A stretch of DNA of 64,000 nucleotides from Pseudomonas laurentiana (GTDB taxonomy: Bacteria > Pseudomonadota > Gammaproteobacteria > Pseudomonadales > Pseudomonadaceae). Shown here piece by piece: positions 1 through 14,808 of this stretch. Positions within the stretch are counted from its first letter, which is position 1. Each line of letters starts with the position of its first letter. The translations under genes and the position numbers were made by a program. The notes under the pieces are model-generated. The model made no database searches. It saw only the letters and a program-made list of their open reading frames with translations, and had not been told where the DNA came from. Location: positions 1 through 64,000 of the forward strand of contig NZ_BMQU01000009.1 of NCBI RefSeq assembly GCF_014648275.1, in the 5' to 3' direction.

Positions 1-85
1 GATCTTCCTGACGCTGCTCTTCGGCATTCATCGCCGCCAGCAGTGCATCGTCATAACCCTGGAGTTGATCGTTTTTACTGAACAT
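1..85 (-). CDS. glyA: Serine hydroxymethyltransferase, N-terminus only (cut by window edge)
   Basis: Only the first 28 codons are present. They read MFSKNDQLQGYDDALLAAMN and continue AEEQRQED, the characteristic start of Pseudomonas GlyA. The enzyme is a cytosolic, PLP-dependent protein that interconverts serine and glycine with tetrahydrofolate. A good ribosome binding site (GAGGAGAG) precedes the ATG. The gene is divergent from a GlxA-type regulator. In P. aeruginosa one glyA copy heads the sarcosine oxidase (sox) operon; this copy could do the same just outside the window, which would suit the creatine genes nearby (inference). Confidence 0.85.
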   Translation of the reverse strand, partial: MFSKNDQLQGYDDALLAAMNAEEQRQED

Positions 86-343
86 GTTCTCTCCTCATGA
101 CGGAGACCTTCCGTCGCTGTTTTTTTTGTTGAGCCGATTGTGCAAAAACGACAAGCGTCATGTTTGTCTGATATCGACATCCAAATGCCCGGCAATCCCG
201 CCAAGGGCCAGGCACCAAGCCTGCACAAGGTGTACTATCCGAACGCCTGGAAGCAGGCAGGAACAACAAGAAAAACAACCCGTACTGCGATGTCTCGATG
301 CTAATGCCGGAGAACGCATTACCGATGCAGAAGAGGAAAGAAC

Positions 344-1357
344 ATGGCCCAGACATTGAAGGGCACAGCCGCCGCGGATCATTTGGCCAAGGCGCAGAAG
401 CCGGTTAAGACCATCGGTTTCCTGGTGCTGCCGAACTTCACTACCATCGGCTTCGCCTCGGCCGTGGAGACCCTGCGAATCGCCAACATGGCCGCGCATC
501 AAACCTTGTATCGGACCGTCATCATTGCCGCCAATCACGACCCCGTGACCGCCAGTAACGGCATGCGCGTGCTGCCAGACTATGCCATCGAAGACGCACC
601 TGACCTCGACATTCTCTTCGTCGTAGGCGCCAACCCCATCGTGTCCGACCACAGCAGCCGACCACTGCTCAACTGGCTGCGCAAGCTGGCCCATCAACAC
701 ATCCCATTGGGAGGGATCTGCACCGGAAGCCACCTGCTGGCCCGAGCCGACCTGCTCAAGGGCTATCGCTGCACCATTCACTGGGAAGACATCGAAGCAC
801 TCAAGGATCGTTTCCCGGGGATCATCATTTCCAATCAGTTGTTCGAACTGGACCGCGACCGCTACACCTGCTCAGGCGGCGTCGCTGCCATGGACATGAT
901 CCTGCAACTGGTCGCCCGCGAGCCCAACGGCGCAGAGATCGCCGCGCGGGCTGCCGAGCTGCTGTTGTGTGATCGGGTGCGTGGAGCGCGGGAGCAGCAA
1001 CGGGTACCGTTGCGCAGCAAACTGGGCACGTCTCAACCCAAACTCAGCCAGGTGGTGGCCATCATGGAAGCCAATCTTGAGGAGCCAGTGGGGCTGGATG
1101 AACTGGCCTCCTTGAACGATGTGTCGGTACGACAACTGGAGCGCTTGTTCAGCAAGTACCTGCAACGCACCCCGAGCCAGTACTACCTGGAATTGCGCCT
1201 GTCGCGGGCGCGTCAGTTGCTGCTGCGCAGTGAATCCCAGGTGCGCGACATCGCCCTGGCCTGCGGTTTCGCCTCGCCTGCGCATTTCTCCAAGTGCTAC
1301 AGCCGGTTCTTTGGCCTGTCACCGATGGGCGAACGCAAACAAGGCGCGTTGCAGTAA
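344..1357 (+). CDS. GlxA-family (GATase1-like + AraC HTH) transcriptional regulator
   Basis: A 337-residue protein. Residues about 22-190 form a DJ-1/PfpI-like domain, with the nucleophile-elbow motif GGICTGS, and residues about 232-330 form a double helix-turn-helix AraC domain (SVRQLERLFSKYL; CGFASPAHFSKCY). This is the architecture of GbdR, CdhR, ArgR and SouR, which sense small amine metabolites in Pseudomonas. The gene is divergent from glyA across a 258-bp gap and lies beside creatine genes. A sarcosine or glycine sensor of the SouR type is therefore plausible, but the ligand is inferred from context only. Confidence 0.85.
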   Translation: MAQTLKGTAAADHLAKAQKPVKTIGFLVLPNFTTIGFASAVETLRIANMAAHQTLYRTVIIAANHDPVTASNGMRVLPDYAIEDAPDLDILFVVGANPIVSDHSSRPLLNWLRKLAHQHIPLGGICTGSHLLARADLLKGYRCTIHWEDIEALKDRFPGIIISNQLFELDRDRYTCSGGVAAMDMILQLVAREPNGAEIAARAAELLLCDRVRGAREQQRVPLRSKLGTSQPKLSQVVAIMEANLEEPVGLDELASLNDVSVRQLERLFSKYLQRTPSQYYLELRLSRARQLLLRSESQVRDIALACGFASPAHFSKCYSRFFGLSPMGERKQGALQ

Positions 1358-1370
1358 CGTCTGTGGCATG

Positions 1371-1795
1371 CAGGCAAGCCTGCTCCTAAAGGGCTGCAAT
1401 TCATCTTGTCGGAGCGTGCTTGCCCGCGATGGAATCGGTGTGGTGTCAGTGAGTTCGCGGTGTTTGTATCGCAGGCAAGCCTGCTCCCACAGGGCTGCAG
1501 TTCATCTTGTGGGGGCGCGCTTGCCCGCGATGGAATCGGTGTAGTGCCAGTGAGTTCGCGGTGTTTGTATCGCAGGCAAGCCTGCTCCCACAGGGCTGCA
1601 GTTCATCTTGTGGGGGCGCGCTTGCCCGCGATGGAATCGGTGTAGTGCCAGTGAGTTCGCGGTGTTTGTATCGCAGGCAAGCCTGCTCCCACAGGGCTGC
1701 AGTTCATCTTGTGGGAGCGTGCTTGCCCGCGAGGGTATCGGTGTGGTGCCAGTACGTTCGCGGTGTTTGTATCGCAGGCACGCCTGCCGAATCAA
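1371..1795. repeat. Tandem array of about four 101-bp REPIN units
   Basis: The start of the unit, CAGGCAAGCCTGCTCC, recurs at 1371, 1472, 1573 and 1674, and a degraded copy sits at 1775; the step is exactly 101 bp each time. Each unit holds one REP, about 18 bp of spacer, an inverted REP (GTGGGNGCGYGCTTGCCCGCG) and a conserved tail, so it can fold into a long hairpin. The second and third full units are almost identical. The last partial unit ends at the stop codon of the MFS gene. No RAYT transposase lies in the window. The open reading frames across the array are repeats of one another and are not genes. Confidence 0.92.
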
Positions 1796-3133
1796 TCAGT
1801 CCCGCAGGGCTGTATGCGCGGTTTCACGCACCGAGAGCATCGCCACCAGCGCGACCAAGGCTGCCGCCAGCAAGTACCAGGCTGGCGCCATCTTGTTGCC
1901 TGTCAGCTGGATCAACCACGTCGCGATAAACGGCGCAGTTCCGCCAAACAAGGCGTTGGCGATATTGAAACTGAAGGCAAAGCCGCTGAAGCGTACCCGG
2001 GTCGGGAAAATCTCTGCGAGAAAACTCGGCAAGGTGCCGTCGTTCATGGCAAGCATGGCGCCGAAGATGATCTGAATCATCAGAATGGCCACCAGCGGCT
2101 GATGATCCAGCATGCTGAACAACGGGAAGGTCAGTAACAGGAACAACACCGATGCCATGACCAACATGGTCTTTCGACCCAAGAGGTCGGACAGTTTGCC
2201 CATCAGGAAAATCAGACCGATGTAGGTCGCAAGCGACACGGTCGAGGCAATGAAGGAGTCGCTCTCGCTCATCCCCATTTCCGTCGACAGGTAGGTCGGC
2301 ATGTAGCTGAGTAACAGGTAGAAGGCTACTGCGTTGAGGCAGGTGACGCCGATACCGATGATGACGCTGCGACGATGCACGGTCAGCAGTTCGCGGATCG
2401 GTGCTGCGGTAGCACACTCCTTGCTCTCCAGACGCTGTTCCATTTCCAGAAACTTGGGGGTGTCCTGCAGGCTCATGCGGATGTAGCGACCGACCAGGCC
2501 AAAGGGTGCCGCCAACAAGAACGGCACGCGCCAGCCCCAGCTTTGCATGTCTTCGCTGCTCAACAATCCATGCAGCCCCGCAACGAAGGCGGCGCCGAAC
2601 AGTAAACCTGCTGCGGTACTCGCCGGCACGATGCTGGTGTACAGCCCTCGCTTGCCGTGTGGTGCGTACTCCGCAAGAAATGCCGAAGCACCGGCGTATT
2701 CACCGGAAGCCGAAAAACCCTGAACCAGTCGGATGAGCAATAGCAACGCCGGTGCCCACAAGCCGATGTGCCCATAGGTGGGCAGAATGCCGATGCAGAA
2801 GGTCGAAATGGACATGATCAGGATGGAAAAGGACAACGCATTGCGACGCCCATACTTATCGCCGAAATGTCCCCACACCAATCCACCCAAGGGGCGAACG
2901 ATAAAGGACAAGGCGAATACGGCAAAGGTTGCCAGCAAACCAGTGGCCTTATCGGTTTGCGGGAAAAAAGTGGCGGCGATGACCGTGGCCAGATAGCCGT
3001 AGGCGGCGTAATCGAACCATTCGACGAAGTTACCCATGAAACTGGCACGTGCAGCCTTGCGCAGCGCTTGCCGTTCAGCGTCTTGCTCGCGGGAATGAAA
3101 CCGGGTTGACGTCAGTGTGGAGGTGGTAGACAT
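1796..3133 (-). CDS. MFS transporter, metabolite:H+ symporter (MHS) family
   Basis: A 445-residue inner-membrane protein with about 12 hydrophobic segments. It has the MHS-type N-terminus (GNFVEWFDYAAYGYLA), the loop motif GHFGDKYGRRNAL, and a second-half repeat GKLSDLLGRKTML. Relatives (ProP, KgtP, ShiA) import organic acids or betaines with protons. I chose the ATG at 3133 because AAGGG lies just before it. The gene follows creatinase by 113 bp on the same strand, so it probably imports creatine, creatinine or a related amidine (inference). The A-rich leader before the gene matches that of the permease at 5925-7319. Confidence 0.85.
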   Translation of the reverse strand: MSTTSTLTSTRFHSREQDAERQALRKAARASFMGNFVEWFDYAAYGYLATVIAATFFPQTDKATGLLATFAVFALSFIVRPLGGLVWGHFGDKYGRRNALSFSILIMSISTFCIGILPTYGHIGLWAPALLLLIRLVQGFSASGEYAGASAFLAEYAPHGKRGLYTSIVPASTAAGLLFGAAFVAGLHGLLSSEDMQSWGWRVPFLLAAPFGLVGRYIRMSLQDTPKFLEMEQRLESKECATAAPIRELLTVHRRSVIIGIGVTCLNAVAFYLLLSYMPTYLSTEMGMSESDSFIASTVSLATYIGLIFLMGKLSDLLGRKTMLVMASVLFLLLTFPLFSMLDHQPLVAILMIQIIFGAMLAMNDGTLPSFLAEIFPTRVRFSGFAFSFNIANALFGGTAPFIATWLIQLTGNKMAPAWYLLAAALVALVAMLSVRETAHTALRD

Positions 3134-3158
3134 GACAAGTACCCTTTTTATTGTTATT
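3134..3158 (-). promoter_or_regulatory. A-rich leader with ribosome binding site, possible Hfq/Crc site
   Basis: Read on the minus strand, the leader is AATAACAATAAAAAGGGTA followed by six bases and the ATG. The AAN repeats running into the Shine-Dalgarno sequence resemble the AANAANAA motif through which Hfq with Crc blocks translation in Pseudomonas. The part AATAAAAAGGGTA-N6-ATG recurs exactly before the permease starting at 7319. Confidence 0.45.
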
Positions 3159-3246
3159 TCTGGCGAAATGTAGGGCTGGCTCGCTTCTCCCCTGACAACA
3201 TTGACCAGGGAAAAAAAGCCGCACATCCCTGTGCGGCGTATCACGT

Positions 3247-4458
3247 TTACTTCTTGATGATGTTTTTCTCTGGCCCGTAAGGGAACTTGGTGATGTTTTC
3301 CGAGCCGTGCTCGTTGACGATCAGGATGTCGTGCTCACGGTAGCCACCCGCACCTGGCATGCCTTCGGGCAGCATGATCATCGGTTCGATCGACACCACC
3401 ATGCCCGGCTCGAGCACTGTATCGATGTCTTCACGCAGCTCCAGACCTGCCTCGCGGCCGTAGTAGTGGCTGAGGGTACCGAACGAGTGGCCATAACCGA
3501 AGGTGCGGTACTGCAACAGGTCGTGCTGGAGGTAGATCTCGTTCAGCTCGCGAGCGATGTCGCTGCAACGCATGCCGGGCTTGATCAGTTTCAGGCCCGC
3601 CTCATGCACCTGGACGTTGACGTTCCACAAGCGCAGGTGCTCGTCGGAGCAATGATCGAGGAACAGGGTACGTTCAAGGGCGGTGTAGTAACCGGCGATC
3701 ATCGGGAAGCAGTTGAGGCTCAGAATGTCACCCTTGTTGACCTTGCGGCTGGTCACCGGGTTGTGGGCGCCATCGGTGTTGATGCCCGACTGGAACCAGG
3801 TCCAGGTGTCCATCAGCTCACCTTCTGGGAAGCTGCGGGCGATCTCGCGCACCATCGCCTGGGTGGCGTGCAATGCCACTTCGTATTCCGGCACCTGGTC
3901 ACGCAAAGCCTCGACGACCGCCGCGCCGCCGATGTCGGCGATGCGTGCGCCATGACGAATCATGACGTGTTCTTCTGCTGACTTGATCATACGCATGCGC
4001 ATGCAGGGCGCGGCGATGTCGACCAATTGTGCCTGCGGATAACGGGCAGCGAGCTTGGCGTGGTTCTGCAGGTTCAGATGGTCGAATTCGATACCGATGC
4101 GGCCCGCTTTGGGAAGCGCCTGCTCGATGGCGACGAAGAAGTTGTCGCGCTGCCAGTCGGTGTAGACGATGTTGTCGGTACCCACGGTACGGCGCCATGG
4201 CTGGCCGCCGTCGATGTTGGCGCTGATCGACACCACCTTGTCCTGGGTTACGACCAATGCATATGGGCGGCCGAAGGAGCAGTAAATGAAATCGCTGTAG
4301 TAGTTGACGTTGTGGTAGGAAGTGAACACCGCCGCATCGATATCCTGGGCCGCCATGTAGGCGCGCAGCTTGGCCTGGCGATCGGCATATTCCTGAGCGG
4401 AAAAGGTCGATTGGACTTTATCGCCGTTGCGGATCTGGATTGTTTTTGGCATTTGCAT
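3247..4458 (-). CDS. Creatinase (creatine amidinohydrolase)
   Basis: A 403-residue protein, the same length as the characterised Pseudomonas putida creatinase and closely similar to it throughout, starting MQMPKTIQIRNGDK. The enzyme is a cytosolic 'pita-bread' fold homodimer that hydrolyses creatine to sarcosine and urea without a metal. The catalytic histidine falls at residue 232, in INTDGAHNPV. The start is supported by AAGGA eight bases upstream. The gene sits between its likely regulator (4663-5685) and an MFS transporter, and the conserved 65-bp block lies 60 bases upstream of its ATG. Confidence 0.97.
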   Translation of the reverse strand: MQMPKTIQIRNGDKVQSTFSAQEYADRQAKLRAYMAAQDIDAAVFTSYHNVNYYSDFIYCSFGRPYALVVTQDKVVSISANIDGGQPWRRTVGTDNIVYTDWQRDNFFVAIEQALPKAGRIGIEFDHLNLQNHAKLAARYPQAQLVDIAAPCMRMRMIKSAEEHVMIRHGARIADIGGAAVVEALRDQVPEYEVALHATQAMVREIARSFPEGELMDTWTWFQSGINTDGAHNPVTSRKVNKGDILSLNCFPMIAGYYTALERTLFLDHCSDEHLRLWNVNVQVHEAGLKLIKPGMRCSDIARELNEIYLQHDLLQYRTFGYGHSFGTLSHYYGREAGLELREDIDTVLEPGMVVSIEPMIMLPEGMPGAGGYREHDILIVNEHGSENITKFPYGPEKNIIKK

Positions 4459-4517
4459 CGTCTGTGTTCCTTGTCATTGTTAGCGATTCGGTACACCGCT
4501 TTTGGCCGGGTCCGTGA

Positions 4518-4582
4518 GAAGCATTGCAGCAGATACCCCGGGGCATCTTTTGTACGTGCCCGACCCGAAATTGGTTAGATCC
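4518..4582 (-). promoter_or_regulatory. Conserved 65-bp upstream block, copy 1 (creatinase promoter)
   Basis: This block aligns without gaps to 12527-12591 with 55 of 65 bases identical, although the flanking sequence is unrelated. Read toward creatinase it contains GGTCGGGC, then CGTACAAAA, then GGTATCTGCTGCAATGCTTC. The GTCG...AA part resembles the TGTCGC-N8-AA half-site of ArgR-type GlxA-family regulators. It is most simply an operator plus core promoter shared by the creatinase and ABC-transporter units. Confidence 0.7.
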
Positions 4583-4606
4583 GAATAGAGGACACCACGC
4601 CCCCCC

Positions 4607-4636
4607 AAAAAAACGGCCCCGAGAAATCTCGGGGCC
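4607..4636 (-). terminator. Intrinsic terminator after the GlxA-type regulator
   Basis: The hairpin arms are CGGCCCCGAGA and TCTCGGGGCCG with a two-base loop. On the minus strand the hairpin is followed by a run of seven T (plus-strand A at 4607-4613). It separates the regulator from creatinase. Confidence 0.85.
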
Positions 4637-4662
4637 GGACGGGTGTCGCGTCAGCAGTGCTG

Positions 4663-5685
4663 TCAATGCAGCGGCGAGGAACTCATGCGGCGCCGATGCG
4701 CGCGCTCATCTTTGGGCGGTACGCCATAGTGTTCACGGTAGCGCTTGGAGAAATGCTGGGTTGAAATGAAACCGCACTCCGTCGCGACCTGCGTCACCGG
4801 CAGTGCCGTCTGCCTGAGCAGTTGCCGTGCCCGTATAAGCCTCAACTTCTGGTAATAGCGCATGGGCGTGCTGTACAGATACTTGAGAAACAACCGCTCC
4901 AACTGGCGCCTGGAAACACTCAGGTAGTTGGCCAGTTCGTCGAGGCTCAGAGGCTCGCGCAGGTTGCTTTCCATCAGTGCCACGACTTCCTGCAGTTTCG
5001 GCTGCGCATGCCCCAGTATGTGCTGGAGTGGCAAGCGCTGATGGCCCTGCTCGTTACGTCGATGATCGAAGGCCAGGGTCTCGCAGATCTGCGCCACCAG
5101 TTCAGTCCCGTGCCCCGTGCCAATCAAGCGCAACATCATGTCCAGAGGCGCAGTCCCTCCCGAGGCCGTGTAACGGTCGCGGTCAATCACGAATAATTGC
5201 GCACTTAAGGTCACACCTGGAAAGCCCTCCTGCATGTCCATCAGGTAGGGCCAGTCGACACTGCAATCGTAGCCATCGAGCAGACCGGCAGCGGCCAAGG
5301 CCCAGCTTCCAGAGCACAGGCCACCCAGATGCAGCCCCTGTTCGGCCTGTGACTTGAGCCAGGATGCCTGCTCAGCCGTACAACTGCGCTCGATGCCTTT
5401 GCCACCACACACAAACAGCGCATCCATCGCCGGCGCATTGCTGGCAGACGTATTGGGAGATATCTGCAGGCCGTTGCTGGCCCATACCGGGCGACCATCC
5501 AGGGTCAAGGTGTGCCAGCGATAGAGCTCCTGCCCTGACAACTGATTGGCCAGACGCAGCGGTTCAACGGCGCAGGACATGGCCATCAGGGAAAAGTTGT
5601 TTATCAGCAAAAAGCCCACCGACTCCAGTACGCGCTCATGCGGACCGTGCTGTTTATCGTCGATTGCCATAGCGGTATTTGTCAT
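4663..5685 (-). CDS. GlxA-family (GATase1-like + AraC HTH) regulator of the creatine cluster
   Basis: A 340-residue protein with a DJ-1/PfpI-like N-terminal domain (elbow GGLCSGSWALAAAGLL) and a C-terminal AraC domain (SVSRRQLERLFLKYL; CGFISTQHFSKRYREHYGV). The frame extends to a TTG at 5688, but the ATG at 5685 is the natural start. It lies between creatinase and a permease and has its own terminator. It is the best candidate activator for the two units carrying the 65-bp block, responding to creatine, creatinine or sarcosine (inference from position). It is clearly distinct in sequence from the regulator at 344-1357. Confidence 0.88.
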   Translation of the reverse strand: MTNTAMAIDDKQHGPHERVLESVGFLLINNFSLMAMSCAVEPLRLANQLSGQELYRWHTLTLDGRPVWASNGLQISPNTSASNAPAMDALFVCGGKGIERSCTAEQASWLKSQAEQGLHLGGLCSGSWALAAAGLLDGYDCSVDWPYLMDMQEGFPGVTLSAQLFVIDRDRYTASGGTAPLDMMLRLIGTGHGTELVAQICETLAFDHRRNEQGHQRLPLQHILGHAQPKLQEVVALMESNLREPLSLDELANYLSVSRRQLERLFLKYLYSTPMRYYQKLRLIRARQLLRQTALPVTQVATECGFISTQHFSKRYREHYGVPPKDERAHRRRMSSSPLH

Positions 5686-5853
5686 CAAAACCTGCCACCT
5701 CTGCGCAAGAGTTAAGCGCGCCTGGGTGGATTATCAGATCTCCAACACAGCCAACATTGTCTGAATTCGACCCTCGATTGTTTGCATTCGGCGCCCACCT
5801 GGCGCGGTGCCGTGCCCTTTCGAAGGGGGAACCGATGCACTGACAGCGGGGAA

Positions 5854-5883
5854 GAAAAAACCGGCCTGCTCCAGGAGCAGGCC
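5854..5883 (-). terminator. Intrinsic terminator after the permease gene
   Basis: A perfect hairpin, GGCCTGCTCC / GGAGCAGGCC with a one-base centre at 5863-5883, is followed on the minus strand by GG and a run of T (plus-strand GAAGAAAAAA). It lies 42 bases past the permease stop. Confidence 0.85.
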
Positions 5884-5924
5884 GTCATAGAGGTCGGCGC
5901 CAGAAGGCGCCGGTGGGGCTGGTG

Positions 5925-7319
5925 TCAAACGCTTTTCGTTGAAGCGACCTCAATGGTTTGCACGGTAGGCTTCTTGGCATTGAAGATTGAACCCATGCAG
6001 ACGATGCACAGCGTGAGCGCACCGGTAGCAATCACTTCCATACGATGCTCTGGCAGCATCAGCATAACGATCAGGATGCTCAGGATGCAGAAAATGACCA
6101 CATAGCTGAGCCACGGGTAAAACCACATCTTGAATGCAATGTGCTGTCCCGATTCATTCAGCTTCTTGCGAAGCTTGAGCTGGGAAAGCGCAATGACGAG
6201 GTACACCAGCAGTGCAACGGCGCCCGAACTGGCAAGCAGGAAGGAGAACACTTCATCAGGCGCGAAGTAATTGAGCGCTGTAGTCAGAAAGCCGACGGCT
6301 GTGCTCGTCAGTACCGCCACATAGGGCACGCCCGACGACGAGGTCTTCTGCAGCACTTGAGGGCCATCACCGCGCTTGCTCAGGGAGTAGACCATGCGCG
6401 AAGCCGTATAGATGGCTGAGTTGAGGCAACTGGCCACCGCTATCAGTACCACGATATCGACGATCATCTTCGCCTGCGGAACGTTCATCAGCTCAAGCGC
6501 TCGCTGATAGGAACCCACCTCCCGAAGCATGGGGTCATTCCAGGGAACAATGGAGATGATGAGGAATACCGAGACAATGTAGAAAATCCCCATTCGCCAG
6601 ACGACCGAGTTTGTCGCCCGGGTGATCTGCTTGGCTGGGTTCTGGGACTCAGCCGCTGCAATCGTGACGATTTCCGTGCCCATGAAACTGAAGACCGTGG
6701 TGAGCATCGCACCGATGACCGCCGTCATGCCATTGGGCATGAAGCCACCAAACGTCTTGCTCAGTTCCATGACGCCACTCACTTCCCTGCCCGGCAATGC
6801 GCCTGCCAGGGCAAGCCCACCGACCGCGATAAAGCCCAGTACGGCAATGACTTTGAGCATGGCGAACCAGAACTCGAACTCACCGTAACGCGCCACGCTG
6901 AAGAGGTTGGTTAGCGTCAACAGACCCGTGACTGCGATTGCAAACTCCCACGTCTGCACGGCAGGGAACCAGGCGTGCAGAATAGCGGCGGCAGCAATGG
7001 CTTCGATAGGAATCACCAACACCCAGAACCACCAGTACAGCCAGCCGATGGTAAAGCCCGCGCTGCGTCCCATCGCCCGCTCGGCATAGGTCGAAAATGA
7101 TCCGGTATCGGGTGAGGCTACCGCCATTTCTCCCAGCATGCGCATGACCAGGACGACCAGCGTGCCGGAAAAGATGTAAGCCAGGATCGCCGCAGGACCG
7201 GCAGATGCAATGGCATGCCCTGAACCGATAAACAGGCCGGCACCGATGGCACCGGCAATGGAGAGCATGGTGACATGACGCTGCTTGAGGCCTGGGGCCA
7301 AAGTGGAGCTGTTTGACAT
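5925..7319 (-). CDS. APC-superfamily amino-acid permease (GabP/AAT type)
   Basis: A 464-residue inner-membrane protein with about 12 membrane segments. It has the family signature in segment 1 (SIAGAIGAGLFIGSG), a charged stretch GEMAVASPDTGSFSTYA, and the loop EIVTIAAAESQNPAKQI. Its relatives are the GABA, lysine and proline permeases. The gene follows creatininase by 78 bp on the same strand and ends at a strong terminator, so creatinine, creatine or sarcosine uptake is likely (inference). Its leader matches that of the MFS gene. A function as a general GABA permease cannot be excluded from sequence alone. Confidence 0.88.
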   Translation of the reverse strand: MSNSSTLAPGLKQRHVTMLSIAGAIGAGLFIGSGHAIASAGPAAILAYIFSGTLVVLVMRMLGEMAVASPDTGSFSTYAERAMGRSAGFTIGWLYWWFWVLVIPIEAIAAAAILHAWFPAVQTWEFAIAVTGLLTLTNLFSVARYGEFEFWFAMLKVIAVLGFIAVGGLALAGALPGREVSGVMELSKTFGGFMPNGMTAVIGAMLTTVFSFMGTEIVTIAAAESQNPAKQITRATNSVVWRMGIFYIVSVFLIISIVPWNDPMLREVGSYQRALELMNVPQAKMIVDIVVLIAVASCLNSAIYTASRMVYSLSKRGDGPQVLQKTSSSGVPYVAVLTSTAVGFLTTALNYFAPDEVFSFLLASSGAVALLVYLVIALSQLKLRKKLNESGQHIAFKMWFYPWLSYVVIFCILSILIVMLMLPEHRMEVIATGALTLCIVCMGSIFNAKKPTVQTIEVASTKSV

Positions 7320-7338
7320 GATATTTACCCTTTTTATT
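7320..7338 (-). promoter_or_regulatory. A-rich leader and ribosome binding site of the permease
   Basis: On the minus strand AATAAAAAGGGTA is followed by six bases and the ATG. The 13-base motif and its spacing are identical to those of the MFS gene starting at 3133, while the six bases next to the ATG differ. Confidence 0.5.
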
Positions 7339-7397
7339 CTACTTAGGAGGGTGAAGGATCAGTTGCAGGTTGTTGTTTCGGCTCTCACGGGTGCTCG

Positions 7398-8180
7398 TTA
7401 GGTGGTTAAATCGAACGCCTCCCGCACTGCGGCGCTAATACCGGAAACACAGACGCTCAGAATCAGTTCACCTTTCTCGCGACTGGAGCCTTTAGGCGAT
7501 GACAGTGTTCCACATGCCGGGGTGCGCTCTGGAATGATGGGAAAGACGTCATACGGCGGGAAGGTGGCCGGTGGATGGTCGACTGCGCGACTCAAGTCGA
7601 CCTTGTCTGGGTGCAGGGCCAACATCAGCGACGTCTCGAAGACGCCACCATGCTCGATATCCCAACCGAGAAATCCTTCGGGATAAAGCTGTTCAATCAC
7701 CGCGGGGTCGTTAATGAAGTCCCAGTAGGAAAGCACCACCACTTTGAAATCGTTGATGCCGCCGTAGCGCAGTTCGCGAAGGGCAAGGTCAATGCCTTCG
7801 ACAATGAACATCGAGTTTTCGAAATGCCCATTCATCAGCACCAGCTTGCGCGCACCATGACGTGCCAGCTCTCTGATGATGTCCTGAACGGTATGGGTCA
7901 GTGTGGCGCCATCAAGGCTCGTCGTGCCGGGAAAGTGGTTACCGCCTCCCGATTTCTGCTGAGATTTGTACCCATACGCCAGCGCAGGCAAAACCAGTCC
8001 ATCGACATTGAAGGCCACCGCCTTGCACACGGCTGTCGGTAGCAGGACATCAACCTCCATGCACATGTGATGACCGTGCTGCTCCAACGCGCCGACGGGC
8101 AGGAATATAGGGCAACCACCGGCCACCTTCTGCGCGTACTCCTGCCAGGTGAGTTCGCCGATCGATACGCTGTTATTCAT
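7398..8180 (-). CDS. crnA: Creatininase (creatinine amidohydrolase)
   Basis: A 260-residue protein that follows the Pseudomonas putida creatininase closely. The cytosolic hexameric metalloenzyme reversibly opens creatinine to creatine. Metal ligands expected from the known structure are present: Glu33 and His35 (GALEQHGHHM), Asp44 (MEVDVLLPT), His119 and Glu121 (LMNGHFENS). The start at 8180 has AGAGGG upstream; a longer frame to 8243 lacks similarity. The gene lies 169 bp past the ABC ATPase gene and 78 bp before the permease, making the first catabolic step of the cluster. Confidence 0.97.
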   Translation of the reverse strand: MNNSVSIGELTWQEYAQKVAGGCPIFLPVGALEQHGHHMCMEVDVLLPTAVCKAVAFNVDGLVLPALAYGYKSQQKSGGGNHFPGTTSLDGATLTHTVQDIIRELARHGARKLVLMNGHFENSMFIVEGIDLALRELRYGGINDFKVVVLSYWDFINDPAVIEQLYPEGFLGWDIEHGGVFETSLMLALHPDKVDLSRAVDHPPATFPPYDVFPIIPERTPACGTLSSPKGSSREKGELILSVCVSGISAAVREAFDLTT

Positions 8181-8349
8181 GCACACACCCTCTGTAAGTG
8201 TCTTATTTTCTTCATGTTTTTCAAGCGCCAAATCGTGCGCCACTATAGTTACAGCCGTGGTACAGCGGTAGCCTTGTTTTTGCAGTTATCTGTTGGCCAT
8301 CATGGCTCTGAGGCCTTGCGGCAAACGCAATCCGTGCGCGCCACGATGC

Positions 8350-9438
8350 TCAATCGCCACGCAGGATCAGCGCACACGCGCCATCCCATTCGGCGACGAT
8401 TTTTTGCCCGTTGCGCAAGCCGAGTCGGTTGTAATCGGCATGCGGTTTCTGCACCTGCAGTTCCAGCCCATCGCCGGCATCAAGGTAGATATTTACCATT
8501 GAGCCGATGAACTCTTCGCCGACCACGGTGCAGGTCAGTCGGTTGCGTTGGCGGGGGTGCTCGGTCAAGTCGATATGCTCGGCGCTCAGGCAGACAGTGA
8601 CCCGCTCGCCGGGTGTGGTCGATTTGCCCTCTGGCCGCCGCGCCAGGAACTCGCCGTGCTCGGAGCCGACACGAACCAGCCCCCTATCGTCAAAGCCTAT
8701 GACTGTGCCGCAGAGGATATTCTTGCCGCCGATGAACTCGGCGACAAAACGGTTGTGCGGCTCGAGGAAAACCTCCTTCGGCGAGCCTATCTGCTCTACC
8801 CTGCCCCGGCTCATGATCACCACACGATCGGCCATGGCGAAGGCTTCGGACTGACTGTGCGTGACGTAGACGAAGGTGATGCCGAGGTCCTTCTGCAGCC
8901 CGGTCAACACGCCCTGCATACGCACACTCAGATGAGCATCGAGCGCACTCAGCGGCTCGTCGAGCAACAGGATCGATGGCTCGGTGACCAGCGAACGGGC
9001 CAGCGCCACACGTTGACGCTGGCCGCCGGAGAGCAGGCTGATGTCGCGCATCGCAAACTCTTCCAAGCCCAGCCGCTCAAGCCATTGCAGCGACTTCTTG
9101 CGCCGCTCGGCCTTGGCCATGCCGCGCATCCGCAGACCGAACTCGACGTTCTCGACCACATTGAGAAACGGGAACAGTGCCAGGTTCTGCCAAACCAGCG
9201 GTGTCTCCCGCTCCCAGGAATAAAGGTCGTTGATCCGCTCGCCGTTAAGGCGTATCTCGCCTTCACTCGGCTTGTCGAGGCCGGCGAGCATGCGTAGCGT
9301 CGTGGTCTTGCCGCAGCCGCTCGACCCCATGATCGCGACAAATTCGCCCTTGTAAATCTCAAGGTTCATGCGTTCGACAGCATGGTAACTGCCGAAATGC
9401 TTGACCACGTTATCAAACACCACCAACGGTTGAGTCAT
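8350..9438 (-). CDS. ABC transporter ATP-binding protein, polyamine/opine type (PotA-like)
   Basis: A 362-residue cytosolic ATPase with Walker A GSSGCGKTT, a Q-loop at VWQNLALFP, signature LSGGQRQRVALARSL, Walker B ILLLDEPLSALD, switch histidine VTHSQSEAFAMADR and a C-terminal TOBE domain. It is the last gene of a four-gene operon transcribed leftward (binding protein, permease, permease, ATPase). Relatives import putrescine, spermidine or other cationic amines. Its place next to creatininase and the shared 65-bp block before the operon point to creatinine or creatine as substrate (inference). Confidence 0.92.
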   Translation of the reverse strand: MTQPLVVFDNVVKHFGSYHAVERMNLEIYKGEFVAIMGSSGCGKTTTLRMLAGLDKPSEGEIRLNGERINDLYSWERETPLVWQNLALFPFLNVVENVEFGLRMRGMAKAERRKKSLQWLERLGLEEFAMRDISLLSGGQRQRVALARSLVTEPSILLLDEPLSALDAHLSVRMQGVLTGLQKDLGITFVYVTHSQSEAFAMADRVVIMSRGRVEQIGSPKEVFLEPHNRFVAEFIGGKNILCGTVIGFDDRGLVRVGSEHGEFLARRPEGKSTTPGERVTVCLSAEHIDLTEHPRQRNRLTCTVVGEEFIGSMVNIYLDAGDGLELQVQKPHADYNRLGLRNGQKIVAEWDGACALILRGD

Positions 9439-9478
9439 GGCTGAAATCCTTCGGGTTCAGTTGTTTGTCAGGGTGGCA

Positions 9479-10276
9479 TCAAGCCGTTGCAGGCTTGTGA
9501 CGCCGCATCAGCAACAGTTGTGCGAGGATCACCAAGGTCATCGTCGTGATGAAGACAATCGTGCCGATCGCATTGATGGTGGGGCTCACCTGCCCCTGCA
9601 AGGTGTTCAGGATGCGCACGGGAACCGTTTCATTGAGCCCGGACACGAACCACGCGACAGCGAACTCGTCAAATGAAACGGCCATGGTCACGAACAGCGC
9701 AGCGAAGATGCTCGGCGCCGTAAACGGCAGGATCACAAAGCGCATGGCCTTCCATTGGTTGGCACCGAGGTTCCATGCTGCCGCCTCGATATTCGGGTCC
9801 ATCTGCGCAAGGCGCATCCGGATCACCGCCATCGCAAACGGTGCACACATCACCACGTGACTGATCATCACCGCGTAGATCTCGCCGGAAAGCCCGACCC
9901 GCGACAGGAAAGCCAGCATCGCCAACCCCATGATCACCACCGGAATGGTCGGCGGCAGCAGCGCCAGCGCCATGTAGATCGACTTGCCAAAGAACTGATA
10001 GCGGAAGTCGGTATAGGCCGCGGTGAAGCCCAGCACGGTCGACACCAGGGACACCACCACACCCACCATCAGGCTGTTCTTGAATGCCTGCCACACCGCG
10101 GGGTCAGCGGCGATCGTCTCGTACCAGTGCAGGCTGAAACCACCCAGCGGCAAGGACGGGAAACGGTCGATGTTGAATGAAAACACGACGCTGCCAGCAA
10201 TCGGCGTGAAGATGAAAACAAACACCAACACCACGTAACTGCGCAGTACCAGGTTAATCAGGCGATGCTCGTTCAT
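9479..10276 (-). CDS. ABC transporter permease, polyamine type (PotC-like)
   Basis: A 265-residue inner-membrane protein with about six membrane segments and the ATPase-coupling loop EAAAWNLGANQWKAMRFVI. I chose the ATG at 10276 because it overlaps the preceding permease stop as ATGA, implying translational coupling; the open frame upstream to 10369 has no similarity to permeases. Forty bases separate it from the ATPase gene. Confidence 0.92.
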   Translation of the reverse strand: MNEHRLINLVLRSYVVLVFVFIFTPIAGSVVFSFNIDRFPSLPLGGFSLHWYETIAADPAVWQAFKNSLMVGVVVSLVSTVLGFTAAYTDFRYQFFGKSIYMALALLPPTIPVVIMGLAMLAFLSRVGLSGEIYAVMISHVVMCAPFAMAVIRMRLAQMDPNIEAAAWNLGANQWKAMRFVILPFTAPSIFAALFVTMAVSFDEFAVAWFVSGLNETVPVRILNTLQGQVSPTINAIGTIVFITTMTLVILAQLLLMRRHKPATA

Positions 10277-11190
10277 GCGCGCCTCCGATAAGCGAAGCGA
10301 ACCGCCGCGAAAGCCGTGATCAACAACGTCACGATCATCATCGTTGCGATCACCGCTGCGCGTGGCCATTGCTGGCCGGACTTGGTGGTGTCGGTGATCA
10401 GGGTGCTCAAGGTCGGCGGCTGGCCACCCCCCAGATAGAGCGGGCTGACAAAGTCACCGAACGTCAGGATGAAGCAGAACAGCGCCGCGACGACGATACC
10501 GATTCGTGCCGACGGCACCACCACCAGAAACACCGTGCGCATCCGCCCGCAACCCAGGTTGTGCGCCGCCTCGATCAGCGAACGATCGATGTACATCAGG
10601 CTGAACAGTTGCAACAGCACCACCAGCGGCAGGCACAACGTGAAGTAACCGACATAGGTCGCAAACGCGGTATTCAGCATTGCCAGCGGTTCCAGCCCGA
10701 ACTGGCCCAGCGCGGCGTTGAGAATGCCGTTATCGCTGAGGAACACCTGCCATGAATAGGTACGCACGAGGTAGCTGGTGAAGAACGGTGTGATCAGCAA
10801 CAGCACGATCAACTGCTTTACCGACTCACGAAACTTGAACGCGATGGTGTAAGCACAGGGCAACGCCACCACGCTGATCAGCACTGCGGCCCCGGCAGCC
10901 ATCGCCAGGGTGTGGGCATAGGCATCCCAGAAAAACCCGCGACTGAGCATGTAGTTCCAGTTCAGCCACTCGAACGCCGGCACCATCCGGAAGTTGCGCA
11001 CGACCCAGAAACTGATCGCCACCAGAAACGCCAGCGGAAAAACGAAGAAGACCAACTGCCAGATCAGGATCGGCATCGAAAAGCTGAAGCCGTACCAGGG
11101 CAAGCGCAAGCCTCTTCTGCCACCACGCAGTTGCGCCGCGCTGCCGTCGGTAACGACAGGCGGGGAAACCTTTAACTTGTTTGACATCAT
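10273..11190 (-). CDS. ABC transporter permease, polyamine type (PotB-like)
   Basis: A 305-residue inner-membrane protein with about six membrane segments and coupling loop IEAAHNLGCGRMRTVFLVV. It has a longer soluble N-terminus than usual before the first segment (ILIWQLVFFVFPLAFLVAIS). GGAGG lies eight bases before the ATG at 11190, with an alternative ATG at 11187. It is 23 bases past the binding-protein stop and overlaps the next permease by four bases. Confidence 0.91.
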   Translation of the reverse strand: MMSNKLKVSPPVVTDGSAAQLRGGRRGLRLPWYGFSFSMPILIWQLVFFVFPLAFLVAISFWVVRNFRMVPAFEWLNWNYMLSRGFFWDAYAHTLAMAAGAAVLISVVALPCAYTIAFKFRESVKQLIVLLLITPFFTSYLVRTYSWQVFLSDNGILNAALGQFGLEPLAMLNTAFATYVGYFTLCLPLVVLLQLFSLMYIDRSLIEAAHNLGCGRMRTVFLVVVPSARIGIVVAALFCFILTFGDFVSPLYLGGGQPPTLSTLITDTTKSGQQWPRAAVIATMMIVTLLITAFAAVRFAYRRRA

Positions 11191-11213
11191 TGCGACCACC
11201 TCCGCACGCCTCG

Positions 11214-12341
11214 TCAAGCACCCTTGTATTCGGACCAGAAGTCGTTCCAGTCCTCCAGGCTCTGCTGGACCGGAAGCTCGCGGTACTTGATGCGACCCGC
11301 ACGGATGTCATCCATGACGTTGTGCTGACCGAGCACCATGCCTTGGCGCTTGGCTTCGGCGGGATCGGTCTTGTTCAGCAGCTCCCAACCGCGCTTGTTG
11401 GGGATGAGTGCGGGATAGGCGGCCATCTTCGCCGACTTGACCTGACCTTCCGGCGAGGTGATGTATTGGATGAACTTCTTCGCCAGTTCCGGGCTGTGGG
11501 CGTTCTTGGCAATGCAATAGGACTCTGTCCATTGCAACCCACCCTCCTCTGGCACCACGGTTTTCAGTGGCGCGCCGGAGCGCTGCAACACACCCGTGAT
11601 CCAGTCGCCGATGCCGCACATTGCATGGATCTGACCGTTCTTGAGCGACGAGAAGGTGCCGCCATAATCGAAGAATCCACCGATCTGCGGACGCAGGGTC
11701 ATCATCTTCTGCTTGACGCTTTGCCAGTGCGAGGCGTCGATGTCGTAGGGGCGTGTATTGCCATTGGCCAGACTGATCTGCCCCAAGTTCGGCAAGTGCC
11801 AGTCGAAGTGCCCGACCTTGCCCTTGAGGCTTTCGTCCCAGAACGCGCTGTAGCTGCGCACCTTGGTTTCGGGAACAAGCAGGGTGTTGTAGGCGATGCC
11901 AAGGAAGCCGAAGCGGATCAGGACCGAATAGAGCTCATCACCCTTCCAGTGCCCGGGGAAGTGCTGGAACTCGGGGTAGAAATCATCGAAGGGATAGTCG
12001 GCGGGATCGAGCCGTTCAATGTATTCGGCGGCATTGAGTTGCTGTACGTATTCAGCGTCGGACAGGATCAAATCGAAGGTGCCGGGCGGGGACTGCGAAA
12101 TCAACCCGAGCATATTGTCCCCGCCGGTGTAGTACTTGGCCCGGACCTTGACCCCGTACTGGCGTTCGAAATCGGCGACGATGTCCGGCTCGGCGTGCCC
12201 AGCCCACGCCAGGATAACCAGTTCTTTTTCTGCAGCTGCAAAGCTTCTCATGGGGAGGAAGCTGGAAAGCGCGGCGGTGCCCGCCAGGATACTGCTGGTC
12301 TTGATGAACGTACGGCGTGAAAGGTCGATGCTTTTTTTCAT
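11214..12341 (-). CDS. ABC transporter substrate-binding protein, polyamine type, Tat-exported
   Basis: A 375-residue periplasmic protein. The start at 12341 has GAGGAGAG upstream. The N-terminus has a twin-arginine signal (LSRRTFIKTSS) followed by a hydrophobic stretch and a likely cleavage after SFAAA, so it is probably exported folded. The mature part resembles PotD/PotF-type proteins (IRFGFLGIAYNT; FFDYGGTFSSLKNGQIHAM). First gene of the importer operon, with the conserved 65-bp block 186 bases upstream. A creatinine or creatine ligand is inferred; a polyamine or other guanidino compound is the alternative. Confidence 0.9.
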   Translation of the reverse strand: MKKSIDLSRRTFIKTSSILAGTAALSSFLPMRSFAAAEKELVILAWAGHAEPDIVADFERQYGVKVRAKYYTGGDNMLGLISQSPPGTFDLILSDAEYVQQLNAAEYIERLDPADYPFDDFYPEFQHFPGHWKGDELYSVLIRFGFLGIAYNTLLVPETKVRSYSAFWDESLKGKVGHFDWHLPNLGQISLANGNTRPYDIDASHWQSVKQKMMTLRPQIGGFFDYGGTFSSLKNGQIHAMCGIGDWITGVLQRSGAPLKTVVPEEGGLQWTESYCIAKNAHSPELAKKFIQYITSPEGQVKSAKMAAYPALIPNKRGWELLNKTDPAEAKRQGMVLGQHNVMDDIRAGRIKYRELPVQQSLEDWNDFWSEYKGA

Positions 12342-12852
12342 TATTGTCTCTCCTCGGTAATGGAAAGTTGCTTCTGTCCTTCTGGCCTCGCCTATTGCTT
12401 GTCCCTGTCCTGGCACGCGAACGGAAGATGAACACGGCCAATTCCCCCTTCCGCACACACCCCGTCGCAACGCCATGAACAGTGAATGGAATCCCCTGAT
12501 GCAACGCGGCACGGGTGGATTCTCAGGAAGCATTGCAGCAGATACCCACGAGCCTTTTTTGTACGCGCCCGACCTGCAGTTGGTCAGATCCGCCCTCATT
12601 GTTTTTATCTGGCTCAAGCGTGTCAGACTGATAACGCACCTGACTCGATGAGTGGCTTTTTGCGTATCTCGAATAACGCGAAGGGACGGGATGGACTACA
12701 TGAGCGCCGTTGCTCAGTGGATTGGCCAAGCGCCTATCTACAGTCCATATCTACAACAGCGGCATCACTCGTGGCGCTTTTTCCATGACCGCTACGTTTT
12801 CTGAAACAGGCAACTCCCCCGAACGACACAAATAAAAAAAGTAGAGGGTTGT
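12342..12852. other. 511-bp divergent intergenic region, ABC operon / chemoreceptor
   Basis: No gene is seen here. It holds the long leader of the binding-protein gene on the minus strand, the conserved 65-bp block at 12527-12591, and the promoter of the chemoreceptor on the plus strand, which ends in AGAGGG before the ATG at 12853. Confidence 0.7.
12527..12591 (-). promoter_or_regulatory. Conserved 65-bp upstream block, copy 2 (ABC operon promoter)
   Basis: Gap-free partner of 4518-4582, with 55 of 65 bases identical. The best-conserved parts are the 21 bases beginning GAAGCATTGCAGCAG (plus strand), TTTTGTACG, GCCCGACC and TTGGT-AGATCC. It lies 186 bases upstream of the binding-protein ATG, against 60 for creatinase, so the leader here is long. 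Confidence 0.7.
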
Positions 12853-14808
12853 ATGACTATTCGCTTCAAACTGATAGCCGCGTTTATCGGTGTGACGTTA
12901 ATTCCCATGTTGATGATTACGCTGTTTGTTACTACGCAAGCGATGAACAGGGAACGCGAGCAGTTTAACCAGAGCAGCGTTAAACAGATTAATGAAGTAG
13001 ATAATGCATTTTCTTTTTTCCTTGAGAACGTCGCAGACAATGTCACGCTATTGAGTCAGACCCGACTTTTAAAGTCTGCCGACAACACCCTTCCTCGTTA
13101 TATCGAAACCTCGCAGGTGACAAAAATGCACGCGCCTGCCAGCGGAGTGGGTGCTGCGATCCATGAGCTGTTCGAGCAGATGGGCACGTCGCACCCCAGT
13201 TACGCCTATGTCTATGCGGCAACTAGCCAAGGGCATTATCTGCAATGGCCAGCGTCGGATATCCGCGCGGGCTACGATCCCCGCGAGCGCCCTTGGTTCA
13301 AGGCCGCCCTTACGGGCAATGGAAAGCCGGTGCGTACTCAGGCCTACACGTTTGCCGAGGATAACGCCGTTATTGTGTCCACCGCACAAACCTTTATCGA
13401 TGCCGATGGCGGCACCGGTGTTATCTCGCTGGACGTCTCACTGAACCAGTTGACCGAAGTGGCCGGCAAGATCCGTTTTGGCAACAACGGTTATCTGTTG
13501 TTAGTGGAAAGTGACGGCAATGTGCTGGCCGACCCGATGCACCCCACAAACAATTTCAAAGCCTTGGCGAGCCTGGGTGATGGGTACAGTTTCCTCGCCC
13601 GCCAACCCGCAGGCTTTTATAACGTGCAACTGGAGGGCAAAGACTACAACGCCAGTATCTATAAATCGAAAGCCCTGGGCTGGACCTACATCGCCCTGAT
13701 CGAGAGCAGCGAAATAAGCGCTGGCGCCTGGCATCTGGTGTGGGTGATCACACTGCTGGCCGGCGTTCTGGTGACGATTTTCGGACTGTGCGGTGTAGCC
13801 CTGTCCCACGTGGTCATTGCACCGATCAACAAGACCTCGGCAGGCTTGCACGATATTGCCAGCGGCGAGGCCGACTTGACGCGCCGCCTGCAGATCAAGG
13901 GCAATGATGAAACAGCGCAAATGGCCAAGGGCTTCAATGGCTTTGTCGACAGTATCCAGAACCTGATCAAGGAGATTCGCGCGTCCAGCTTGCAGGTCGA
14001 GCAAGGCGCAGCGGATATCGGTGCCCAGGCCGACCAGCTCGACGATACGGCACAACGCCAGTCGATGGCGGTGGACATGGTGTCCACTGCCTTCCATGAA
14101 ATGGTCGCCACCGCCAATGAAGTGGCGATCAACTGCAATCGCGCCGCGCAAGCGGCTCAGCACGGCCAGGATCAGGCGCACAAAGGCCAGCAGGTCATCG
14201 GCCTGATGGTCAACCAGGTGAGCAACCTGGGTGACCGTATTCGTCAGGCGGCGGAGTCGATCAGCCAACTGGAGCACAATACCCAAGGCATCACCGCCAT
14301 TCTCGACACCATCCGCGGCATTGCCGAGCAGACCAACCTGTTGGCGCTCAATGCTGCCATTGAGGCCGCGCGCGCTGGTGATCAGGGACGCGGTTTTGCG
14401 GTGGTGGCCGACGAAGTGCGCGCACTGGCCAAACGCACCTCCGACTCGACCGAACAGATCAACGGCTTGCTCGGCAAACTGGTCACCAGCAGCCAGAGTG
14501 TGGCCATGGAAATGCATCACAGCCTGATTCAGTCAAACGAATCTGTGGCGTTCACCGCTCAGGTGGAAGAGGCATTTGCCGGCGTGCATGAAGCGGTGAC
14601 GACGATCAAGGACATGAACACCCAGATCGCCACTGCTGCCGAAGAACAGCATGCTGTGGCCGAAGACATCAATCGCCACATCGCTGACATTCACAGCGAT
14701 GCGGGTCGTATCAGTGAAGTGTCCAGCGTCTCCAAGATCACCACGCACTCCCTGACGCAGATATCCAGCGAGTTGAACACATTGGTGGGGCGTTTCCGTA
14801 CGGACTGA
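12853..14808 (+). CDS. Methyl-accepting chemotaxis protein with dCache sensor
   Basis: A 651-residue inner-membrane chemoreceptor. Membrane segment 1 is at about 5-28, a periplasmic double-Cache domain at about 35-285, membrane segment 2 at about 290-312, then HAMP and the long signalling coiled coil. Its tip [19 protein letters not shown] lies near residue 500. The sensor has [13 protein letters not shown], then a Tyr (QAYTF) and an Asp (SLDVSL), close to the residues that contact the amino group of ligands in amino-acid or amine-binding dCache domains. It is divergent from the ABC importer, so the ligand may be a substrate of that cluster (inference). Confidence 0.92.

Follow-up and report, generated by a model that had tools for sequence, protein, structure and literature searches.

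CrnT is a permease of the cytosine-permease kind, and CahR is a creatine-sensing regulator of the GlxA type (GATR) that binds the promoter of the creatinase gene creA. In Corynebacterium glutamicum, deletion of the MFS protein CreT abolishes growth on creatine and leaves growth on creatinine intact, and in Pseudomonas putida NBRC 14164 a CreT-like MFS gene adjoins the creatinase gene, according to the accessible part of PMC8864220. The sole ATP-binding cassette (ABC) system mentioned in that part, Corynebacterium Ncgl1915-1918, is described no further than as a transporter of nitrogen sources. Creatinine, a waste product of the kidney, accounts for a large flow of waste nitrogen from animals and serves as a clinical marker, yet little has been described of how bacteria take it up. 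Here we describe a locus at positions 1-14808 of a window of 64,000 nucleotides, which is the whole stretch of DNA that was analysed (Pseudomonas laurentiana, GCF_014648275.1, contig NZ_BMQU01000009.1, 1-64,000). The locus is the very start of its contig, as the window begins at contig base 1, in a genome of 5.2 Mb; among named relatives, Pseudomonas defluvii is the nearest, with a binding protein that is 98% identical. It is a creatinine catabolic locus with an ABC importer of PotD type, and its gene content, linkage and distribution make it quite probable that this importer is a dedicated creatinine uptake system. If so, the substrate would be new, and the machine itself would be of a known kind.

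The importer is encoded by four adjacent and intact genes on the minus strand, as the sequence-only reading of this DNA had proposed. They encode a binding protein, the predicted creatinine receptor (11214..12341), which has a twin-arginine signal (TIGR01409) and matches family models; a PotB-like permease (10273..11217, from a TTG start as listed, with an ATG at 11190 possible); a PotC-like permease, abcC (9479..10276, by family model and start check); and a PotA-like ATPase (8350..9438, by family models). On the same strand are found the creatininase gene crnA (7398..8180, start checked) and creA (3247..4458). CrnA scores 382.2 bits against the TIGR04448 model, which has a cut-off of 235, and matches the solved creatininase 1j2t over its full length (E 9.2e-143). 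CreA, which is formed by Creatinase_N and Peptidase_M24 domains, matches the solved creatinase 1chm over its full length (E 3e-252) and has His232, Glu262 and Glu358, which we take to be its catalytic residues. The identities of both enzymes are secure. All named genes are open frames with zero internal stops. The earlier gene list was borne out, apart from three start positions that are corrected here to 8180 for crnA, 3133 for the MHS symporter gene and 10276 for abcC.

The importer goes with creatininase and not with creatinase, as is observed directly in two sets of genomes, 399 of Pseudomonas and 129 of the Rhodobacterales family of the Roseovarius locus L110. In the Pseudomonas set, 45 genomes match TIGR04448 at E 1e-40 or better and 24 of these carry the clade of the window CrnA (at least 76% identity to it). 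The CrnA count leaves out the other 21, of which 19 match at about 45-50% identity and two (G188 and G257) match at 35% and score under the family cut-off; no creA was found in about 19 kb around the creatininase-like genes of the excluded genomes. The binding protein, counted at an identity of at least 85%, is present in 16 of the 399 genomes, all of them among the 24 with window-clade CrnA. Creatinase is present in 68 genomes, 23 of which have window-clade CrnA, and the importer is found in 15 of these 23 versus none of the 45 others (Fisher 1.1e-9, kinship ignored). In the Rhodobacterales set, four genomes have the binding protein at 73% identity at least and the same four have CrnA at 75% at least, while a creatinase-like gene is common (89 of 129); relatives of the binding protein at 49-65% are found in ten further genomes of this set.

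Gene neighbourhoods were compared in the best 80 of 262 binding-protein relatives from named genomes, 26 from Pseudomonas and 54 from other genera. crnA stands beside the ABC genes in 72 of these 80 named loci (25/26 in Pseudomonas and 47/54 elsewhere), and the tie between importer and creatininase spans Gamma-, Beta- and Alphaproteobacteria. Of the eight loci without crnA, two (L052 and L105) end at a contig edge and five (L123-L127) make up a sister group, which leaves L092 as the one plain exception. Outside Pseudomonas, the usual cassette contains creA, crnA, a LysR gene (near in 47 of the 54 loci) and the ABC genes, mostly without a secondary carrier; on plasmids of Microvirga, Mesorhizobium, Paracoccus and Shinella the stretch of this set from creA to the ATPase gene contains no further annotated transporter. 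Three loci, L055, L059 and L073, carry the regulator gene reg1, an APC permease gene, crnA and the ABC genes, and neither creA nor an MHS gene is found in the stretches examined. creA lies on another contig in the genomes of L059 (G221) and L055 (G038), and was not found in the genome of L073 (G316, 78% complete). The locus can be read as two modules, one for creatinine, made of reg1, APC, crnA and the ABC genes, which stay together in these three loci, and one for creatine, made of a GATR regulator gene, creA and the MHS gene, which fits the need of CreT for creatine use and the resemblance of CreT to the creatinase-adjacent gene of P. putida.

These observations also bear on the proposal that creatine is the cargo of the ABC importer, alone or on equal terms with creatinine, and that creatinine enters through the APC permease or by diffusion. 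Such a role would agree with the presence of creA near the ABC genes in 65 of the 80 named loci, with a promoter block common to both, and with Roseobacter denitrificans, which uses creatine without a CreT homologue and for which another creatine carrier is expected (accessible part of PMC8864220). It is at odds with the 45 creatinase-bearing Pseudomonas genomes without this CrnA, none of which has the importer, with the absence of the binding protein (73% identity or more) from 85 of the 89 Rhodobacterales genomes that have a creatinase-like gene, and with L055, L059 and L073, which keep the ABC genes and crnA where no creA is seen. In Corynebacterium, creatinine is moreover called a membrane-impermeable nitrogen source in the same part of PMC8864220. 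A creatine importer is thus judged unlikely. The sequence-only reading had named creatinine or creatine as the cargo; the first is upheld, as the importer follows creatininase across classes, and the second is not. Because the importer follows crnA, it is not claimed to explain the creatine uptake of R. denitrificans.

Fold and pocket of the binding protein—The binding protein has a fold of the PotD/PotF kind, and its best Foldseek and VIA-align rows are PotD, PotF and YdcS; the structure model took 58 of 104 binding-protein rows as input. An ordinary polyamine importer, standing at this locus by chance, would be in keeping with the names of many relatives, as 13 of 22 plasmid relatives of the binding protein bear a spermidine/putrescine name. 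The protein stays below the curated cut-offs of these families, with 68.2 versus 582 bits for PotD, 41.5 versus 636 for PotF and 43.9 versus 725 for YdcS. In PotD, spermidine is contacted by Glu36, Glu171 and Asp257 (accessible part of PMC4096761). Gly48 corresponds to Glu36 in the window protein, no residue is aligned to Glu171, and Glu273 corresponds to Asp257, which is the only one of the three with an acidic counterpart. The Glu36 position is a glycine in 79 of 79 rows, while the region of Glu171 aligns poorly, as phmmer pairs this residue with Asn185 and hhalign leaves a gap. The altered pocket residues argue against a polyamine ligand, and the linkage to crnA across bacterial classes speaks in the same sense; in view of the model scores and the pocket, the polyamine reading was rejected and is given hardly any probability. 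The pocket table and the tree described below leave out L073, whose frame runs into the next gene (700 amino acids), and label L052 and L105 as crnA-linked by kinship only, their contigs ending before the crnA position; the pocket table places L092 outside both of its groups.

The predicted creatinine importer also shares a control element with creA. The promoter block proposed in the sequence-only reading is real: its copies upstream of the binding-protein gene (12527..12594, minus strand) and of creA (4518..4585, minus strand) are identical at 56 of 68 bases by sequence comparison, and the next best site of the window reaches 34 of 68. A pattern built from both copies has no further matches, and only this absence is informative. 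Of the 25 named Pseudomonas loci L048-L072, 20 have a 50-base form of the block, with at most 5 changes, no more than 214 bases from the binding-protein gene, and the remaining five have it, with 4 changes, about 530-700 bases upstream of that gene. creA was seen in 21 of these loci, and 19 of the 21 also have the block about 65 bases upstream of creA; it is absent from 20 mononucleotide shuffles of the window. In another locus, L133 (G114), the block is at 10440-10489, where the ABC genes would stand, and no ABC gene is found in the stretch, which looks like a lost importer.

The genes are read on the minus strand in the order binding protein, two permeases, ATPase, creatininase, APC permease, reg2, creatinase and MHS symporter, while reg1 and a chemoreceptor gene are on the opposite strand. 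There is an overlap of 4 bases between the binding-protein gene and the first permease gene, and another of the same length between the two permease genes, given a start of the second at 10276. Gaps of about 40, 169 and 78 bases then precede the ATPase gene, crnA and the APC gene, respectively. Hairpins that have a G+C-rich stem and a T tail are found 3' of the APC gene, reg2 and creA, and the terminator-like hairpin after the APC gene (5862..5884, minus strand) is read as the end of a unit. The hairpin number in the region is close to that of shuffled sequences (13 found and 11.0 expected), so that the argument rests on where the hairpins stand and not on how many there are. One transcription unit is read as containing the four ABC genes, crnA and the APC gene; reg2, creA and the MHS gene are read as further units, with creA presumably under a separate promoter that has the same control block.

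Both GlxA-type regulators were confirmed, as they are formed by DJ-1/PfpI and AraC helix-turn-helix domains, and they are 45% identical to each other. reg1 (344..1357, plus strand) scores about 385.5-385.7 bits with the GbdR model, which has a cut-off of 480. reg2 (4663..5688, minus strand), directly upstream of creA, scores about 480.5-481 bits; its identification as GbdR was rejected, as another gene of the genome scores 654.1 bits. We assume that reg2 sits in the place of a CahR-like regulator. Since the same control block is present at both promoters, one GATR regulator probably turns on both the ABC unit and creA; this regulator, its inducer and the transcription units are all predictions.

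In the mechanism proposed here, the binding protein would catch creatinine in the periplasm and the two permeases and the ATPase would carry it into the cell, where CrnA would open the creatinine ring to give creatine. CreA would then split creatine into sarcosine and urea, and sarcosine would be converted to glycine and serine. Gene content and order, linkage, co-occurrence, the shared promoter block and the altered pocket are observed; the ligand, the affinity for it and the inward direction of transport are predicted.

Secondary carriers—The APC permease (5925..7319, minus strand), which is GabP-like by family models, scores 719.2 with the GABA permease model TIGR01773 (cut-off 678.1), in agreement with the family proposed before. 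This cut-off is passed by three genes of the same genome, and the GABA label does not fix the substrate of the permease, which may be a second, perhaps high-capacity, creatinine carrier. The MHS-type MFS symporter (1796..3133, minus strand, by family model and start check) was also assigned to the family named earlier, but its TIGR00883 score of 425.8 is under the cut-off of 443.45. It is better read as a CreT-like creatine carrier, on account of the CreT deletion phenotype and of the MFS gene beside the P. putida creatinase gene, and would import creatine.

The carriers vary between loci and the ABC importer is constant. Among the 26 named Pseudomonas loci, 12 have APC and MHS genes, eight have APC alone, three have BCCT and sodium/solute symporter (SSF) genes, two have BCCT alone and one, at a contig edge, has none. 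In the 54 loci outside Pseudomonas, a search limited to five carrier families found none in 47; the exceptions are an MHS gene in L098, an SSF gene in L113 and five loci with sub-threshold BCCT relatives at 50-53% identity. Azoarcus has ABC genes of this group with a carrier of the cytosine-permease family and an MFS carrier next to them. In four other Pseudomonas loci (L132, L149, L159 and L161), BCCT-type and partly sodium/solute symporter genes beside crnA replace the APC and MHS genes.

Wider family of the binding protein—In a quick tree of 104 binding proteins, with long branches flagged, the 79 crnA-linked rows are grouped with few exceptions, and 3 label changes are needed versus a shuffled mean of 22.6. 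These rows are not one clade, as L082 is paired with L092, and the rows from Pseudomonas branch separately from those of Alphaproteobacteria. ABC importers beside phosphoribosyltransferase and BtpA genes are found in ten rows that group together and in L180 (L165, L123-L127, L180-L182, L184 and L186), and their ligand is perhaps a nucleobase-like compound. Inside the ten-row group, L165 (4459-12007) also contains a cytosine deaminase gene. The neighbours of farther relatives include a nucleoside deaminase gene, a set of amidase, polysaccharide-deacetylase and urea-carboxylase-associated genes, and various other genes. An Ancylobacter relative at 52% identity stands beside deaminase, hyuA, hyuB, isochorismatase-family and creatininase genes, partly so in L187 and L188 too, which is presumably the gene set of the N-methylhydantoin route. 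This route starts from creatinine, not from creatine, and creatinine is the common starting compound of both the creatininase and the N-methylhydantoin routes.

Such neighbours raise the case of a different small nitrogen heterocycle as ligand, such as N-methylhydantoin or a pyrimidine, with a regulatory or historical link to crnA, as relatives at about 49-65% identity adjoin genes of cytosine deaminase, nucleoside deaminase, hydantoinase, phosphoribosyltransferase and BtpA. In the tree, L180 is the only one of these relatives placed within a crnA-linked part, and the window clade is linked to enzymes that act on creatinine and creatine, which leaves this explanation very improbable for the window importer. 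For the family as a whole, opinion is evenly balanced on whether the PotD-like proteins of this clade and of the neighbouring groups are one family of ABC importers that take up small nitrogen heterocycles. Many of its members are polyamine-named; their ligands would be creatinine here and cyclic ureides or pyrimidine-like compounds in the hydantoinase, cytosine deaminase and phosphoribosyltransferase-BtpA groups, and the window member would be the first creatinine ABC importer. The earlier remark that no creatinine ABC importer is well described agrees with open-access titles and abstracts on creatine and creatinine use and transport, ABC importers and fitness screens, in which none is named among the matches listed.

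Several observations weigh against creatinine as the dedicated cargo of the importer. The pocket residues compared with PotD are mostly unchanged in relatives that have other neighbours, and do not single out creatinine. The binding protein of L180 is inside a crnA-linked part of the tree and stands beside phosphoribosyltransferase and BtpA genes, and in L092 the ABC genes are present but crnA is absent from the surrounding 19.5 kb. Eight of the 24 Pseudomonas genomes with window-clade CrnA have no importer, from which it follows that the importer is not essential. A secondary carrier able to do the job is present in 25 of the 26 named Pseudomonas loci, the other one ending at a contig edge. 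One of the four Rhodobacterales CrnA matches, that of G411, has one in-frame stop.

At the other end of the locus, the chemoreceptor gene noted earlier (12853..14808, plus strand) encodes dCache_1, HAMP and MCPsignal domains, and it is a fair guess, no firmer, that the protein senses creatinine or creatine. Its sensor domain is found at an identity of at least 79% in four of the 399 Pseudomonas genomes, all four with the ABC importer, and the next matches are at 45% or less. The gene is on another contig in G082 and about 14 kb from the binding-protein gene in G060, and is also present in the named loci L048, L064 and L067. The closest solved sensor domain by sequence is 6mni. A chemoreceptor beside the Shinella cassette was rejected as an orthologue, as its similarity to the window sensor domain is weak (E 6e-4).

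Other features were noted beside these genes. In Pseudomonas, a second TIGR04448 clade at about 45-50% identity is above the family cut-off and away from creA (L128, L129 and L135, with others in G010, G054 and G124), and its family name may be misleading as to the reaction. G208 and G060, which are two of the 24 genomes with window-clade CrnA, additionally carry a gene of this second clade. A tandem array at 1370-1787, between reg1 and the MHS gene, has a 101-base unit in 4.1 copies with 94% matches. The gene start seen earlier at the contig edge is present, as the minus strand from base 85 reads MFSKNDQLQGYDDALLAAMNAEEQRQED; this gene is presumably glyA, and its remainder is off the contig because the window starts at contig base 1.

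If the proposed function is true, a creatinine-binding protein would explain scavenging of creatinine by soil, marine and plant-associated bacteria, the polyamine label of its relatives would be corrected, and the protein could become part of a reagentless creatinine sensor.

Among described systems, the clusters of P. putida and Arthrobacter sp. TE1826 have a creatinase gene with an adjoining MFS carrier gene, as in the window, and no ABC importer for creatine or creatinine is named for these clusters in the accessible part of PMC8864220. The MHS symporter of the window agrees with CreT, compared by its description there, in its MFS family and in its place beside creA. Like CreT, which takes up creatine as judged by deletion, and CrnT, which takes up creatinine as cited in that part of PMC8864220, the window importer is predicted to serve uptake for catabolism. 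Unlike it, CreT is encoded by one gene and has 11 predicted membrane spans (same part of PMC8864220), and neither CreT nor CrnT is an ABC system. With PotABCD and PotFGHI of Escherichia coli the importer shares the binding-protein fold, the four genes, an ATPase with a TOBE domain and the two permeases. It differs from them by an identity of about 20% in structural alignments, a score below the PotD cut-off, the absence of two of the three spermidine carboxylates and its linkage to creatininase.

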